Assembly: GCF_947498005.1 (NCBI RefSeq) | Contig: NZ_CANMIW010000006.1 | Coordinates: forward strand, 62,001-126,000 | DNA: 64,000 bases | Source of the DNA: an uncultured Winogradskyella sp. | GTDB taxonomy: Bacteria; Bacteroidota; Bacteroidia; Flavobacteriales; Flavobacteriaceae | Reading direction: 5' to 3' | Part shown: in pieces, positions 1 to 5,485 of the stretch | Layout of the letters: each line of letters begins with the position of its first letter | Position numbering within the stretch: position 1 is the first letter of the stretch | Notes under the pieces: generated by a model | Seen by the model: the letters and a program-made list of their open reading frames with translations, nothing else | Databases searched by the model: none | Told to the model about the DNA's origin: nothing | Program-made: the position numbers and the translations under genes

Positions 1-56
1 GAATTGATGCTATAAATGGTGGTGGACTAAGTAGCTTACAGCGCAAGCTAGGTTAA
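1..56 (+). CDS. 3' end of an unidentified gene (partial)
   Basis: A reading frame enters from the left edge and ends with TAA at 54-56. The visible C-terminal residues are IDAINGGGLSSLQRKLG. This is too little to name the product. Its stop codon overlaps the stop of the convergent DUF4230 gene within the four bases TTAA at 53-56, so the two genes meet tail to tail with no spacer. That it is coding is inferred from the open frame and the neat convergent junction only. Confidence 0.4.
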   Translation, partial: IDAINGGGLSSLQRKLG

Positions 57-676
57 TTTAATATGTCTTCTAAATTTTCGAGCTGAATTAAATCGTTAAC
101 GGGATTTTCATTGTACTGCAATGTCCAACCTAAAGAGTTCGTTAACATAAAAAATTTAGAAAGCTCACTGATTAATCGATTTTGAGCGTTAGCTTTTAAA
201 TCTGAAGCTTCAATCTTTTTCATTAAAGATTTACTAACCGTTTCCTTAATCTTATTATAGTCTTTGGCTTCAAATGGATTGAGATAATCGGCTTGGATAT
301 CGTAATACTCAAAATCTGGACTAATTTTTATTTCTTCTTTTGGGATATTTAAGATTTGAAGCGTTTTAGTTGTTTCATCAATATTGTATTCAATTTTACT
401 CAAATCATAAGTCACAGTAACATCTGCGTTTACCACGACTAATGCTTTTTTATCTGCAGAAAGATAGTCTCCAAAAATAGCTTTAGAATTTTTGTAGCTA
501 AACACTTCAGAAAAATGCCCTTCGGTTACAACTAATTTACCTACGTTTTTTATTTGTTCTTGGATTAAAGCACTGTGCTCTTCAATTACAATTTTATCTT
601 CATTTTTATCATCACAATATTTAAAAGTAAAAATGACAATTATTGCGATAATGATACCAAATACTATTTTTTTCAT
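53..676 (-). CDS. DUF4230 domain-containing membrane-anchored protein
   Basis: A 207-residue protein with a short N-terminal hydrophobic segment (about residues 4-18, rich in Ile and Val) followed by a soluble domain that should lie outside the cytoplasmic membrane. The soluble part resembles DUF4230 proteins: a strand-rich first half with VVVNADVTVTYDLSKIEY, then a helical second half. The molecular role of the family is unknown. The gene stands alone between a convergent gene on the left and the divergent secreted-family gene on the right. The family call rests on recalled sequence character, not on a search. Confidence 0.6.
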   Translation of the reverse strand: MKKIVFGIIIAIIVIFTFKYCDDKNEDKIVIEEHSALIQEQIKNVGKLVVTEGHFSEVFSYKNSKAIFGDYLSADKKALVVVNADVTVTYDLSKIEYNIDETTKTLQILNIPKEEIKISPDFEYYDIQADYLNPFEAKDYNKIKETVSKSLMKKIEASDLKANAQNRLISELSKFFMLTNSLGWTLQYNENPVNDLIQLENLEDILN

Positions 677-735: not shown

Positions 736-758
736 TTTTTTTGCCTTATGTCGTAAAC
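736..758 (+). promoter_or_regulatory. Upstream element of secreted-family gene 1
   Basis: Contains TTTTTTTGC (736-744), five bases, then GTCG (750-753) followed by TAAAC. The same T7GC-N5-GTCG arrangement is found at 3163-3180 and a degenerate form at 1785-1803. In each case the GTCG or ATCG core lies 156-158 bases before the chosen ATG of a gene of the same family. It is probably a regulator binding site or a relic of gene duplication. The regulator is unknown. Confidence 0.35.
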
Positions 759-905
759 GTGTGTGGGTTAACTAAAAAAAATGCAACATATCACTAAAAT
801 TTAAAAGTTTCTTTCTTCTGGTTTTAACTTAGACACAGAATAAGATAGTATTTCTATTAAAACAGAATACTTAAAGAAAGCCCTCTAATCTAAAAAGTGA
901 CTATT

Positions 906-1664
906 ATGTTTAAAAATATAAGCACACTACTTATCCTATTTACGACTTTAACTAGCTACGGCCAAGACTTCAAGTTAATAAAAAACACACATCCTAAAGC
1001 AAAAGAGTTAAAGCATAGTTTAAATCATACCAAAGACAGTTTAATTTTAGAATGTAATAACAAGATTCTAAATGTAGAGTTTTTTAATGAAGATTTTGAA
1101 AAAAAAGTAATCGTTGATGACCTTAAGACCAAAATATCACTGAAAGAATTTCCACAGGGAAAATTTGTTATAGAAGCTAAGTTAGCAGATAAAATTATTC
1201 TTATGGATTTGATTAGACATGAGAACTATAATGACAACCCTCAAACGGATGTAAATGAACCAGCAGAAGGTAAAGGTATGATGTTAGATGAGAGTTTAAA
1301 TATTATAAAATCATCACCAAAAAATAGTATTTCATATATTCTTACTCGTGGCAAAATAAAACAAAACAGAACTAATAGTTCTAAATTTTATTGGATAATA
1401 TCTCATGTAAATAATAAGATAGGATCGAGTAAAACTATGAAATTAGCAGACCAAGAATCAGTGGATAGAATGATATTAAAACATAAGGTAGAACTAAAAA
1501 GTGATTGTGGCAAACTTAACGAGTTAACCATTTGGGAAGTGTATGATACTAGTGAATTTATGGAAAACCAAGCCTCTAATCCAAACTTTGTATATACTTC
1601 AACTACGGATGTTTTTAATTCTACACCGTATTATACGACAAATCTAAAATCTCAAGATTTATAG
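906..1664 (+). CDS. Secreted protein of an uncharacterised tandem family, copy 1
   Basis: The product is about 252 residues from the ATG at 906. An in-frame GTG at 897 is possible but would spoil the compact signal peptide MFKNISTLLILFTTLTSYGQ. The mature protein has two conserved blocks shared with the next two genes. The N-terminal block has the pattern A-x-ELKH-x-LN-x-T-x-DSLIL-x-C and F-N-x-DFE. The C-terminal block has DQ-x-x-VDRMI, then LNEL-x-x-W-x-VYD, and ends in PYY. The linker between them is short and lacks the DLAVAGKK motif of the other two copies, so this is the most divergent member. Function is unknown. Export to the periplasm or beyond is inferred from the signal peptide. 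Confidence 0.75.
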   Translation: MFKNISTLLILFTTLTSYGQDFKLIKNTHPKAKELKHSLNHTKDSLILECNNKILNVEFFNEDFEKKVIVDDLKTKISLKEFPQGKFVIEAKLADKIILMDLIRHENYNDNPQTDVNEPAEGKGMMLDESLNIIKSSPKNSISYILTRGKIKQNRTNSSKFYWIISHVNNKIGSSKTMKLADQESVDRMILKHKVELKSDCGKLNELTIWEVYDTSEFMENQASNPNFVYTSTTDVFNSTPYYTTNLKSQDL

Positions 1665-1784
1665 TTTATAAGATAATTTTTGGAATAATTTAAGGTTTTT
1701 AAGTTTTTGACTTTTCAAATATCACAATTTTTAAACCTCTAGTAATCAAGACAGTTAATATTAAAACATTTACTTTTCATGCCG

Positions 1785-1806
1785 TTTTTTGTGTTGTTTA
1801 TCGAAG
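1785..1806 (+). promoter_or_regulatory. Upstream element of secreted-family gene 2 (degenerate)
   Basis: A run of six T, then G, and TATCG ending at 1803, resembling the T7GC-N5-GTCG element before copies 1 and 3 but with two extra bases. The ATCG lies 158 bases before the ATG at 1958, against 156 and 157 in the other copies. The similarity alone is weak; the constant distance is the main support. Confidence 0.25.
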
Positions 1807-1874
1807 ATCTTTACACATTAACTAAGATTAAAGTAGGCTAACTGATTTATAGAAATTACCAAAATAAAAGCAAA

Positions 1875-1882
1875 TATCTTTG
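1875..1882 (+). promoter_or_regulatory. Probable -7 promoter box of secreted-family gene 2
   Basis: TATCTTTG matches the Bacteroidota housekeeping -7 consensus TAnnTTTG exactly. Transcription would start near 1889, giving a leader of about 70 bases that contains the motif shared with gene 3. No good -33 TTG is seen at the usual distance. Confidence 0.4.
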
Positions 1883-1928
1883 TTTATACCGATGAATTGT
1901 ACATATTTGTAGTTACATTGGTAATATT

Positions 1929-1957
1929 GTTTCCCCAAAACAAAAACCTACTTAGAC
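1929..1957 (+). promoter_or_regulatory. Leader motif shared with gene 3
   Basis: The 25-30 bases before the ATG (a pyrimidine-C run, then AAAACAAAAACCTACTT) are nearly identical to 3304-3333 in front of copy 3. This conservation right up to the start codon suggests shared translation control or a recent duplication that included the leader. Copy 1 lacks it. Confidence 0.4.
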
Positions 1958-2950
1958 ATGAAAACACTTTACACAACAGTGTTCTTACTTTTGGCATCAT
2001 TAGTTTATGCCCAAAAATCTACATTATATCAAAATGTAAATGTTAGAGCGCAAGAACTTAAACACAACCTTAACAAAACTGGAGATAGTCTCATATTAAA
2101 ATGTGAGCGAACAGTATACGAAATTGTTATATTCAACGATGATTTTGAACGTGTTATTAAAGTTAGAGATAATGAAGCCATTATACCTATCGCTGATGTC
2201 CCTGTTGGAAGATATATTGTAGAAGCCTTGCTAAGTGACAAATTAATAGTAATGACTCTATTAAGAAATGAATCTTTTGGAACACCTCCTCCTAAAGCTC
2301 TTATAACGGATAGCTCTGATTTATTTGGAACCAAACAAAAAAAGGAAGCTGTAGCGAGTGTTGAAGTCCCAATTAAGACTCCAGAAAAAGAAGAAATTAA
2401 AGTTGCTGCGATTGAAGAGACTCAACCTATGGAAGAACTAACCAGCAGTGAAAATCATATAAAAAAGACAGATTTAGCGGTTGCAGGTAAAAAGTCTGAG
2501 CCAGAAAAAGTTAAAAAACCAAGGCTAAAAAGAAAGGTAACTTATACCAAACCTAAAGATCCAACGGAAAGTAGTTTATCATTATTTAAATCTGAAAAAC
2601 AAACCGCTAGTACTTCATCTAAAAGATCTACCAGAGAAGTCGATGCTGCGAGAGCTAATAGAATTGAGAGTACATATTGGGTAGAATATAGAATTAATAA
2701 TGGACAGAGCTCTCAAAAAATACAAAAATTAGGAGATCAAGATACGGTTGATCGTATGATTAGAAAAATAGAGATTGATAAGAAAACTAAAGCCGGACGA
2801 TTAAATGAACTTATTATCTGGACGGTTTATGATCCTCCACAATTTGTAAATCACAAAAAGAACAATAAATCGAACTTTACAACATTACCATCGGAAAGCT
2901 TCAATCTAGAACCTTATTACAAGCAAGTAAACGATCCGGATAATTTGTAA
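1958..2950 (+). CDS. Secreted protein of an uncharacterised tandem family, copy 2 (long linker)
   Basis: A 330-residue protein with a clear signal peptide (MKTLYTTVFLLLASLVYAQ). Residues about 25-110 form the conserved N-terminal block (RAQELKHNLNKTGDSLILKC, then FNDDFERVIKVRD). Residues about 120-235 are a Lys/Glu/Thr-rich, probably disordered linker containing DLAVAGKK. Residues about 240-330 form the C-terminal block (YWVEYRINNG, GDQDTVDRMIRKIEIDKKTK, GRLNELIIWTVYD, EPYYK). The linker is about 75 residues longer than in copy 3. No enzyme motif is visible. The two conserved blocks held by a variable linker suggest a two-domain binding or structural protein of the envelope. That role is inference. 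Confidence 0.8.
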   Translation: MKTLYTTVFLLLASLVYAQKSTLYQNVNVRAQELKHNLNKTGDSLILKCERTVYEIVIFNDDFERVIKVRDNEAIIPIADVPVGRYIVEALLSDKLIVMTLLRNESFGTPPPKALITDSSDLFGTKQKKEAVASVEVPIKTPEKEEIKVAAIEETQPMEELTSSENHIKKTDLAVAGKKSEPEKVKKPRLKRKVTYTKPKDPTESSLSLFKSEKQTASTSSKRSTREVDAARANRIESTYWVEYRINNGQSSQKIQKLGDQDTVDRMIRKIEIDKKTKAGRLNELIIWTVYDPPQFVNHKKNNKSNFTTLPSESFNLEPYYKQVNDPDNL

Positions 2951-2984
2951 TTTTCATAACTTAAATACATAAAACGTAATATAT

Positions 2985-3020
2985 AAATCTCAGATTAGTA
3001 ATTAATCTGAGATTTTTTTT
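2985..3020 (+). terminator. Rho-independent terminator after secreted-family gene 2
   Basis: A perfect 13-bp stem (2985-2997 with 3003-3015), loop GTAAT, then an unbroken T-run to 3020. It lies 35 bases after the stop codon of gene 2, so genes 2 and 3 are separate transcription units. Confidence 0.85.
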
Positions 3021-3162
3021 ACAATTAATCCAATCACTCTAACGGACTAGCTTAGTGAATCTCTATGAGATAATCACACCTCAACAAAACCCACTTAATC
3101 ATCTGAAATTAAACAACTTAAGCCAAACAAACGCATTAATAAAAAAATTAACTTTAATACCC

Positions 3163-3184
3163 TTTTTTTGCACTACGTCGATAG
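3163..3184 (+). promoter_or_regulatory. Upstream element of secreted-family gene 3
   Basis: TTTTTTTGC (3163-3171), five bases, GTCG (3177-3180), then ATAG. It has the same layout as the element at 736-753. GTCG lies 157 bases before the ATG at 3334. Confidence 0.35.
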
Positions 3185-3333
3185 TGAATACAACTCAACA
3201 ATAAAATAAGTAATGTGTCCATTTATCTAAAATTAGGTTAGTATAATACTTTAATTTTACACTAGCTAAGTGAGTAATCCCTAATTACTTTTTGCTATTA
3301 AATTGTTCCCAAAAACAAAAAACCTACTTTATT

Positions 3334-4101
3334 ATGCGACTACAAATTACACTCGTGTATTTGCTTTTGACTTCTTTTGTTTATGGTCAAAAATCCACGT
3401 TATTCCAAAATAAAAATTCTAGAGCTTTAGAGCTAAAACACGAACTAAATAAAACTAACGATAGTCTTATTTTAAAATGTGATCGTACCATATTCGAAGT
3501 CGTTTTCTTTAACGATGATTTTGAAAGGGTCGTTAGAGTTAGAAAAAAAGAAGCCAAAATCGCTATAACAGATTTGCCAGTAGGTCAGTATATAATTGAA
3601 ACACTTCTTAGAGATAAACTCATTGTACTTACTTTAGTAAGAAACGAAGAGTTTAAATTACCCAAACAGGATATTATAGCTAATGTTGTAAAGCAGGAAG
3701 AAAAAAAACCTACACCCTCTCAACTTTTAAACAGAGAAACGATAACTAAAAAATCTGATTTGGCAGTAGCAGGAAAAAAAGCTGTTAGAACAGTTGAAGT
3801 AAAAAGAAAGCAATCCACAGCACTTTATTGGATAGAATACAAAATCAATACAGGTCAAAACACACTTAAAACCGAAAAATTTGGAGATCAAGCAACTATT
3901 GACCAAATGATTAGAAAAATTGAAATAGATAAAAAAACTAAAACAGGTCGCTTAAATGAGTTGATAGTTTGGAAAGTGTTTGATTCTTCCAAGTTTTTAA
4001 AACATAGAAGAGCAAACAAAAACAATTATTCTACAACAGCATCAGACAGCTACAATACAGAGCCTTATTACAAAGAAGTAAATGAGCTAGACAGCAAATA
4101 G
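3334..4101 (+). CDS. Secreted protein of an uncharacterised tandem family, copy 3
   Basis: A 255-residue protein from the ATG at 3334. An upstream in-frame TTG at 3292 falls inside the leader shared with gene 2 and is rejected. The signal peptide MRLQITLVYLLLTSFVYGQ is followed by the conserved N-terminal block (ELKHELNKTNDSLILKC, FNDDFERVVRVRKK), a linker with DLAVAGKK, and the C-terminal block (YWIEYKIN, FGDQATIDQMIRKIEID, TGRLNELIVWKVFD, EPYYKEV). It is clearly closer to copy 2 than to copy 1. Its stop is only four bases from the stop of the convergent gldC. Function unknown. Confidence 0.8.
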   Translation: MRLQITLVYLLLTSFVYGQKSTLFQNKNSRALELKHELNKTNDSLILKCDRTIFEVVFFNDDFERVVRVRKKEAKIAITDLPVGQYIIETLLRDKLIVLTLVRNEEFKLPKQDIIANVVKQEEKKPTPSQLLNRETITKKSDLAVAGKKAVRTVEVKRKQSTALYWIEYKINTGQNTLKTEKFGDQATIDQMIRKIEIDKKTKTGRLNELIVWKVFDSSKFLKHRRANKNNYSTTASDSYNTEPYYKEVNELDSK

Positions 4102-4105
4102 TCTA

Positions 4106-4441
4106 CTATTTTTTTAACTCTAATTTCTCAGCAAAATAATCACAAAAATCTTTCATTGTTGCAGTCATTTTTTCATCTTGAGTGGCTCTTAAAAACGTAT
4201 CACTCATTGTGACTAATGTTTGATGAAAAAACAATTTCATTTCATCTACAGGCATATCCTTTGTCCATAAGTCTATTTTTAGAGTTTCTTGCGCATTACT
4301 ATCCCAAACAGATAACATTAATGCTTTAGCTTCTTCATTATTAACACCACCATCTTGTGCAGACCAGTTTAATTTTTCTGGCACACGGTTTTCATCAAGT
4401 TCTACGTTTAATACTATCTTAGATTTTATAACTTTAGACAT
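4106..4441 (-). CDS. gldC: Gliding motility protein GldC
   Basis: A 111-residue protein without signal peptide or membrane segment, matching GldC of gliding flavobacteria in length, sequence character (KIVLNVELDENRVPEKLNWSA near the N-terminus, a helical C-terminal half) and position next to gldB. Its ATG overlaps the gldB stop by one base (TAATG), so the two are translationally coupled. In Flavobacterium johnsoniae GldC is needed for efficient rather than for any gliding; its biochemical role is not settled. Identification rests on recognised family features and synteny. Confidence 0.85.
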   Translation of the reverse strand: MSKVIKSKIVLNVELDENRVPEKLNWSAQDGGVNNEEAKALMLSVWDSNAQETLKIDLWTKDMPVDEMKLFFHQTLVTMSDTFLRATQDEKMTATMKDFCDYFAEKLELKK

Positions 4442-5412
4442 TACTTTTTTGGTTTAAAATTTGCGTTTCTAAATATTTCTTCAGGTTCGGTTTGCATTAT
4501 TTTTAGCACATCATCCTCTACTTTTTCAGCATAAGCTTTAACAATTTGCCAACCTAAATACTGACCTAATCGTCCAGGCGAATCATTATCTAATTCTAGC
4601 CCAAATTTTGTAAATGGTGCATCACCAACAAAGCGACTTGGCAATTTACTATTTGTACTATAAAGAAATTCTTTTTCTACAAAATAACTCCATATCTGGC
4701 TTTCATTTGCTTCTGCCCATTTTAACTGCGCGTCAGAATATCCTATTTTTTCAGCGTCAGTTTTAAACGGAATCATGATATCTTTAAAGTATAACAACTT
4801 ACCAAAGTAAATCATCTCATCTAACAGCGTACTTCGCCTAGTTTGAAAATTATATTTTGATGCATACCCATTTGCTACATCAGAGATAATCTGATCTTCT
4901 TCCATATTGGCCGCGATATACATTGGTATATTTTGATAAAACGGATGACTAGCTCCTAAATAATTATCTAATGCGATAAGAACAATAGAATCGTTAACAA
5001 AGGTTTTATCTCTGTAAGCTACATCGTTAGTTAAAGTTATAACTCTAGGAGCCTTAAAGGTTTTATCATAATATTTTAGATGCTGAAATAAGCCTTCTAA
5101 CTCTTTTGTAGCCGTATTGACATCTGGAAATTTCTCTTGTACTTCGCCTAGTAATTCATTTTGTAAACTATCATTCATTTTTTCAATCCAGAAAGAATCC
5201 GGATCACTTATAAAAAAAAATGGGTAAGCCTCTTTTAATTTTTGAAGATCTTTAGGCTCAGCCTCAAAAAACGCTTTATCAAAACGTTCAACGTAAAAAT
5301 CTATATCAATCTCAGCAATTTGTTTTTCTAGTTTAGACTCCTCTTCACAAGACCATATAACTAATCCTATCACTAATATTATAAAAAATCTTATCTGCAT
5401 TTTATAAAACAT
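4441..5412 (-). CDS. gldB: Gliding motility lipoprotein GldB
   Basis: About 323 residues. An N-terminal lipoprotein signal (MFYKMQIRFFIILVIGLVIWSC) ends in a lipobox with Trp before Ser-Cys. Starts at 5400 (MQIRFF) and 5451 are also in frame. The one at 5451 would place 13 extra residues ahead of the signal peptide and is unlikely. The mature protein (FYVERFDKAFFEA near the N-terminus, GWQIVKAYAEK near the C-terminus) fits GldB, an essential gliding lipoprotein. It heads a gldB-gldC operon and is divergent from nadE, so both promoters must lie within about 70 bases. Confidence 0.85.
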   Translation of the reverse strand: MFYKMQIRFFIILVIGLVIWSCEEESKLEKQIAEIDIDFYVERFDKAFFEAEPKDLQKLKEAYPFFFISDPDSFWIEKMNDSLQNELLGEVQEKFPDVNTATKELEGLFQHLKYYDKTFKAPRVITLTNDVAYRDKTFVNDSIVLIALDNYLGASHPFYQNIPMYIAANMEEDQIISDVANGYASKYNFQTRRSTLLDEMIYFGKLLYFKDIMIPFKTDAEKIGYSDAQLKWAEANESQIWSYFVEKEFLYSTNSKLPSRFVGDAPFTKFGLELDNDSPGRLGQYLGWQIVKAYAEKVEDDVLKIMQTEPEEIFRNANFKPKK

Positions 5413-5435
5413 TTTTAATCCTAACACGTTTGCGT

Positions 5436-5443
5436 TATTTTTG
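5436..5443 (+). promoter_or_regulatory. Probable -7 promoter box of nadE
   Basis: TATTTTTG matches TAnnTTTG. A start of transcription near 5450 leaves a leader of about 35 bases to the ATG at 5486 and excludes the in-frame TTG at 5441 as start. The box lies 24 bases upstream of the chosen gldB start. Confidence 0.45.
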
Positions 5444-5485
5444 TTGTGCAAAGGTACACTTCTTTGTTATAAAAACTCAAAAATT

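Follow-up and report, generated by a model that had tools for sequence, protein, structure and literature searches.

The question raised by the stretch of DNA analysed here (the window, 64,000 nucleotides from an uncultured Winogradskyella sp.) is what is encoded, and for what use, by three tandem plus-strand genes set between a DUF4230 gene and gldC-gldB. A sequence-only reading had described them as three tandem secreted paralogues, and this stands: the three open reading frames (ORFs) listed below are related by alignment and by mutual matches, and each product has a signal-peptide-like hydrophobic N-terminus ending in ..YGQ/..YAQ, of the signal peptidase I type, secretion being judged by eye. 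The extent of 736 to 4101 assigned to the array holds at its end, the start at 736 being intergenic. The statement that no known domain is present does not hold for the N-terminal block, which is a remote homologue of the type A sorting domain of the type IX secretion system (T9SS) / DUF3244 beta-sandwich by profile, hidden Markov model (HMM) and Protein Data Bank (PDB) matches; it holds for the C-terminal block, where the searches returned no match to a family or to a fold.

906..1664, plus strand: paralogue 1 (P0001, 252 aa); ORF and tree, with its own orthologue group in Winogradskyella; GTG at 897 is an alternative start
1958..2950, plus strand: paralogue 2 (P0002, 330 aa); ORF
3334..4101, plus strand: paralogue 3 (P0003, 255 aa); ORF

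Homology of the N-terminal domain to type A sorting domains of T9SS

966..1220, plus strand: N-terminal beta-sandwich of paralogue 1, resembling the T9SS C-terminal sorting domain (CTD); alignment and profile test, fold inferred from the paralogue 3 model
2015..2269, plus strand: N-terminal CTD-like beta-sandwich of paralogue 2; alignment and profile test
3391..3645, plus strand: N-terminal CTD-like beta-sandwich of paralogue 3; AlphaFold model and PDB matches

Homology between the N-terminal domain and the type A sorting domain of T9SS is shown by computation. The comparison by hhalign of 108 N-terminal domains with 30 type A CTDs gave a probability of 91.7 and a P-value of 7.9e-7 over 68 columns, with a score of 36.5, versus a mean of 9.8 and a maximum of 15.9 in 200 column shuffles and 9.1 in the reversed control. 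When the rows were divided, those of Winogradskyella type alone (75) gave a P-value of 4.4e-6 and those from other genera alone (33) 7.3e-5. The 108 domains were those yielded by 112 distinct family members, a number that includes the locus L080 and a few fragments, L080 not being among the 108. The CTD set held 29 sequences from the window genome, namely 30 of its CTD loci (L082-L111) with L110 dropped for an in-frame stop, plus L080 of another genome.

The same relationship emerged from genome searches with an HMM of the N-terminal domain, which contains no CTD and was built from 45 of 46 diverse N-terminal domains picked (L021:4574-4867 was dropped for unreadable residues). Across 199 Flavobacteriaceae genomes this HMM recovered the family itself (E < 1e-20 in 28 genomes; 3.7e-12 in the distant genome G068) and a second group of weak matches, mostly in long ORFs and many reaching the stop codon. 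For two genomes without the family (G157 and G112, chosen for many or already known matches), comparison by eye placed 20/20 matches at E<=0.001 and 22/24 at E<=0.01 at sites of Por_Secre_tail (PF18962). The N-terminal domain of paralogue 2 also gave a weak phmmer match to the mirolase CTD (E 0.25). Scans of single members against Pfam and NCBIfam returned nothing credible for this domain, and the window genes are absent from the 89 PF18962 places in the window genome.

The AlphaFold model of copy 3, built on 34 sequences, contains a beta-rich domain at about residues 20-104 with a predicted local distance difference test score (pLDDT) above 90 over most of it. A structure model of both blocks had been proposed as a check by the sequence-only reading, and it gave PDB matches to T9SS CTDs and DUF3244 for the N-terminal block and none for the C-terminal block. 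The top rows of the VIA comparison of the N-terminal domain were RemA-CTD (Z 9.3, root-mean-square deviation (rmsd) 2.0 over 71 residues), three DUF3244 structures (9.2 for 3d33, 8.6 for 3sd2 and 8.6 for 4g5a) and FspA-CTD (8.3), while Foldseek placed DUF3244 4g5a at its best match (E 9.9e-4), followed by fibronectin and the mirolase CTD. On the predicted structure, CTD and DUF3244 are tied as matches. DUF3244 was compared with the N-terminal domain by fold and by a PF11589 profile scan of single members; PF11589 is not among the 22 families matched at E<=10 by the 34 members of alignment A2, and no PF11589 match was found in the window genome at E<=1e-5. Alignment A2 comprises 31 of the 34 family ORFs of the named loci L009-L024 and the three window proteins, leaving out two pieces of a broken L021 copy and L013:5957-7039. 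The DUF3244 search across the phylum gave mostly matches within long ORFs. The likeness to DUF3244 (PF11589; 3d33, 3sd2, 4g5a) lies in the fold, and in the fact that single-domain relatives in other genera also consist of a signal peptide and one such domain, whereas there is no profile match and the window proteins add a linker and a second domain.

The N-terminal domain is probably not a working sorting signal, given its place behind the signal peptide and given that most of the N-terminal domains lack the Lys that is near-invariant in CTDs. It lies at about residues 20-105 of proteins of 252-330 aa, directly after the signal peptide and not at the extreme C-terminus; the CTDs described in the available text of two sources are C-terminal (PMC12618676, PMC10994853). 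According to the accessible part of one of these, type A CTDs have close to their end an almost invariant Lys that is important for function (PMC10994853). In the extended hhalign alignment, where confidence is low at this column, at the end of the match, the position is K or R in 2/108 N-terminal domains versus 29/30 CTDs; the presence of L080 favours this alignment, because that locus was retrieved with a profile of the family itself. The N-terminal domains all retain the Gly of the GxY motif (108/108). With type A CTDs (TIGR04183 / PF18962; RemA-CTD 8gl6, mirolase CTD 8qb1) the window domains share profile-level homology, the beta-sandwich, the GxY-type motif and a Sec signal peptide on the same protein. 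They differ in standing at the N-terminus before a linker and a second domain, in lacking the conserved Lys and in giving no match at the level of the profile cut-off, and for these reasons the domain is called here a homologue and not a member of type A.

The T9SS papers, to the extent of their available text, regard the CTD as an export tag at the C-terminus (PMC10994853, PMC12618676, PMC7712824). That a family carries this domain N-terminally, and lacks in it the key residue of the tag, suggests that the fold also serves as an ordinary building block, and CTD-like matches need a check of their position. The family also offers natural candidates for 'signal-dead' CTDs, with which the features that turn a CTD into a secretion signal could be sought. 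Neither the family nor an N-terminal CTD-like domain was found to have been described earlier in the literature covered, most subscription journals lying outside this coverage.

Linker, C-terminal domain and history of the copies

1221..1373, plus strand: linker of paralogue 1; alignment
2270..2659, plus strand: long charged linker of paralogue 2; alignment
3646..3810, plus strand: linker of paralogue 3; pLDDT mostly under 50 in the AlphaFold model
1374..1661, plus strand: C-terminal alpha/beta domain of paralogue 1; alignment A3
2660..2947, plus strand: C-terminal alpha/beta domain of paralogue 2; alignment A3
3811..4098, plus strand: C-terminal alpha/beta domain of paralogue 3; model of the domain alone, pLDDT 87.7

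The linker is predicted to be disordered and evolves fast. In the copy 3 model about residues 110-159 mostly have a pLDDT below 50, and in the orthologue pairs compared the linker keeps 28-57% identity, versus 71-96% for the N-terminal and 74-94% for the C-terminal domain. The linker had been described as strongly variable, long in copy 2 and short in copy 1, which agrees with the lengths found (135 and 56 aa), copy 3 being also short (60 aa). The survey of linker length in related genomes that had been suggested as a check gave the same picture of strong variation, with 28-143 aa among 71 two-domain members.

The C-terminal domain is alpha/beta from residue 164 onward in the copy 3 model, and when modelled alone it reached a pLDDT of 87.7 and a predicted template modelling score (pTM) of 0.77, with the order beta-beta-alpha-beta-alpha. 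Foldseek gave nothing for it at E<=0.001 (best 0.26), which does not show that the fold is new, and its best VIA row had a Z of 5.0 with an rmsd of 3.3 over 76 residues; the PDB sequence search with this domain alone gave no match. The domain is nearly confined to Winogradskyella, being found in 4/199 of the Flavobacteriaceae genomes, namely that of the window, a congener, G118 and (weakly) G068. In G118 and G068 it also stands behind the N-terminal domain, and no gldB/gldC was recognised by eye in the fetched region.

Several candidate matches were rejected. The SeqA C-terminal domain provided the best PDB sequence matches of profile A2 (E 0.63), which were lost with the C-terminal domain alone and were not among the fold rows, and is attributed to chance. 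Alginate lyase NF001466 was matched by 6/34 C-terminal domains (best E 0.0002), covering for P0002 about 54 of 320 positions in a model with a cut-off of 615 bits. SPECT1, ketol-acid reductoisomerase, LptF/G and other scattered weak matches are likewise taken as chance.

With copy 3 as query, copy 1 was matched at E 8.9e-44 and copy 2 at 4.9e-43 and 4.0e-37, far beyond chance. The alignment contains the shared blocks on which the sequence-only reading had based the paralogy, with corrections of their exact form: ELKHxLNxTxDSLIL is present in all three copies, DRMIxK is replaced by DQMIRK in copy 3, and the block given as GRLNELxW reads G(R/K)LNELxxW, copy 1 having K. Copies 2 and 3 had been considered close and copy 1 diverged, from which at least two duplications were deduced. 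Both points are sustained by the identities (56% for copies 2-3, 34% for copies 1-2 and 35% for copies 1-3) and by the tree of 38 rows, where copies 2 and 3 form one clade (support 100/99) and copy 1 falls outside with its own orthologues, so that at least two duplications are needed. Copy 3 pairs in this tree with the third gene of L010 (100/99).

Proposed role and its alternatives

The role that we favour, tentatively and with slightly less than an even chance of being right, is that of tethered periplasmic binding proteins in which a CTD-like domain has been repurposed for docking. The paralogues would be Sec-exported two-domain proteins in the periplasm or at the inner face of the outer membrane, and would not be T9SS cargo. 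The beta-sandwich would act as a docking module and anchor the protein to a partner in the envelope, which may be the machinery that handles genuine CTDs or something independent of T9SS, leaving the tethered C-terminal domain to bind a second partner within reach of the linker; extra copies may vary that reach. The array would have arisen beside gldBC when such a two-domain gene was duplicated, and its copies would have diverged chiefly in the length of the linker. A more specific version seems unlikely, in which a former T9SS sorting domain now serves at the N-terminus as a periplasmic docking domain and contacts the secretion or gliding machinery from the inner side, the protein being a tethered regulator or adaptor whose working end is the nearly genus-specific C-terminal domain, possibly of new fold.

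Several points weigh against the docking proposal. No single member reaches the PF18962 cut-off, with 1/34 giving an E of 1.1, and the first unrelated VIA row, the BBSome at Z 7.8, lies only 0.5-1.5 below the top rows, the fold being a common one. Co-transcription with gldB/gldC is ruled out by strand, the array being on the plus and gldC/gldB on the minus strand. SprA is present in 195/199 of the sampled Flavobacteriaceae and, therefore, co-occurrence cannot separate T9SS-linked from T9SS-independent use. Finally, both the docking and its partner are what we infer.

A real, if doubtful, possibility is that the domain is used independently of T9SS, being the flavobacterial counterpart of DUF3244, an old immunoglobulin-like domain of Bacteroidota to which the T9SS CTD would be a sister, and that the proteins bind envelope ligands (glycan, peptidoglycan or protein) and play no part in secretion. 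The tie of DUF3244 with T9SS CTDs (Z 9.2 versus 9.3), the place of 4g5a at the top of Foldseek and the absence of the CTD Lys agree with this, as does the position of single-domain relatives as the last gene of a conserved envelope-type locus, against a NamZ-like gene (neighbours judged by eye). Nonetheless, by sequence the N-terminal HMM goes to T9SS CTDs, and no DUF3244 match exists in any of the 34 members.

The CTD homology is also what would be expected of two T9SS-linked alternatives. By analogy with PorA, a small CTD protein that acts upstream of PorXY-SigP according to the available text of its source (PMC7712824), the paralogues may be periplasmic T9SS regulators, the CTD-like domain competing with cargo CTDs for PorV/SprA or reporting on secretion. 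The array does lie beside gldBC in 15/16 of the named loci L009-L024, those where gldC is reached, but the Lys is absent, the two-domain form is nearly genus-specific and gldBC is on the opposite strand, making this quite improbable. It is very improbable that the paralogues are atypical T9SS cargo with an N-terminally placed CTD that is still a secretion signal; unusual surface routes are recorded for the small CTD proteins PorA and Fjoh_0547 in the accessible part of PMC7712824, yet the Lys is again missing, the domain is not terminal and described CTDs are C-terminal within the available text of PMC12618676 and PMC10994853. PorA of Porphyromonas gingivalis and Fjoh_0547 resemble the window proteins in being small and exported, in carrying a domain of CTD type and in their atypical handling, and differ in that their CTD is C-terminal. 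The other domain of PorA resembles the FimH ligand-binding domain, as stated in the text available (PMC7712824).

Distribution, relatives and gene surroundings

53..676, minus strand: flanking DUF4230 gene; Pfam E 4.7e-25
4106..5451, minus strand: flanking gldC and gldB, convergent with paralogue 3; TIGR03515, TIGR03514

The named close relatives are almost all from Winogradskyella, and two further relatives occur in the window genome (C2:547360 and C11:42686), where no single-domain copy was seen. Some match was found in 60/60 Winogradskyella-genus genomes, the window's own included, and in 53/60 it was better than 1e-20; the remaining 7/60 have best matches of 1e-9 to 1e-12, which is the level of single-domain relatives. 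The match of G039, one of the 53, is a decayed array copy with 16 in-frame stops (G039:C2:3561-4124). In the named loci L009-L024 the array is beside DUF4230 in 16/16 and has gldC downstream in 15/16, given that L017 ends before gldC. The suggested survey of copy number gave 1-3 copies in these loci (one L021 copy being broken) and 4 in L125.

The single-domain relatives are spread over the Flavobacteriaceae and share one conserved locus. In 10 larger regions judged by eye (L119-L124, L126-L128, L142), the single-domain or long-tailed relatives adjoin a gene that we take to be NamZ/DUF1343-like, with presumed fatty-acid-hydroxylase-like genes and, in most, a presumably GDPD-like gene upstream in the same direction. 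This locus also contains a conserved protein of ~300 aa (..VLMVWEE..; L119:8435-9334) for which Pfam gave no match at E<=0.01. In other genera, long relatives (L054-L079, e.g., L055:934-1965 and L056:1474-2364) have a charged linker followed by a conserved tail around (S/T)REEYRxxNLRPNGKPYD in place of the C-terminal domain, that is, the same plan with a different rear end.

No convincing Bacteroidota promoter motif was found 5' of each paralogue gene. A near-identical leader of the TTCCCCAAAACAAAAACCTACTT type stands just 5' of the start codon in copies 2 and 3 (1931-1953 and 3305-3328) and not in copy 1. The array spot takes up genes, foreign-looking ones being found between array copies at L017:5870-9678, L018:3319-4659 and L020:2834-4555 (GNAT acetyltransferase, TfoX_N, Amidohydro_3 and others). 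Locus L021, from a metagenome-assembled genome named Algicola and placed in Pseudomonadota by the tree tool, carries DUF4230, gldC, gldB and the array in flavobacterial order, and its name or placing is probably wrong.

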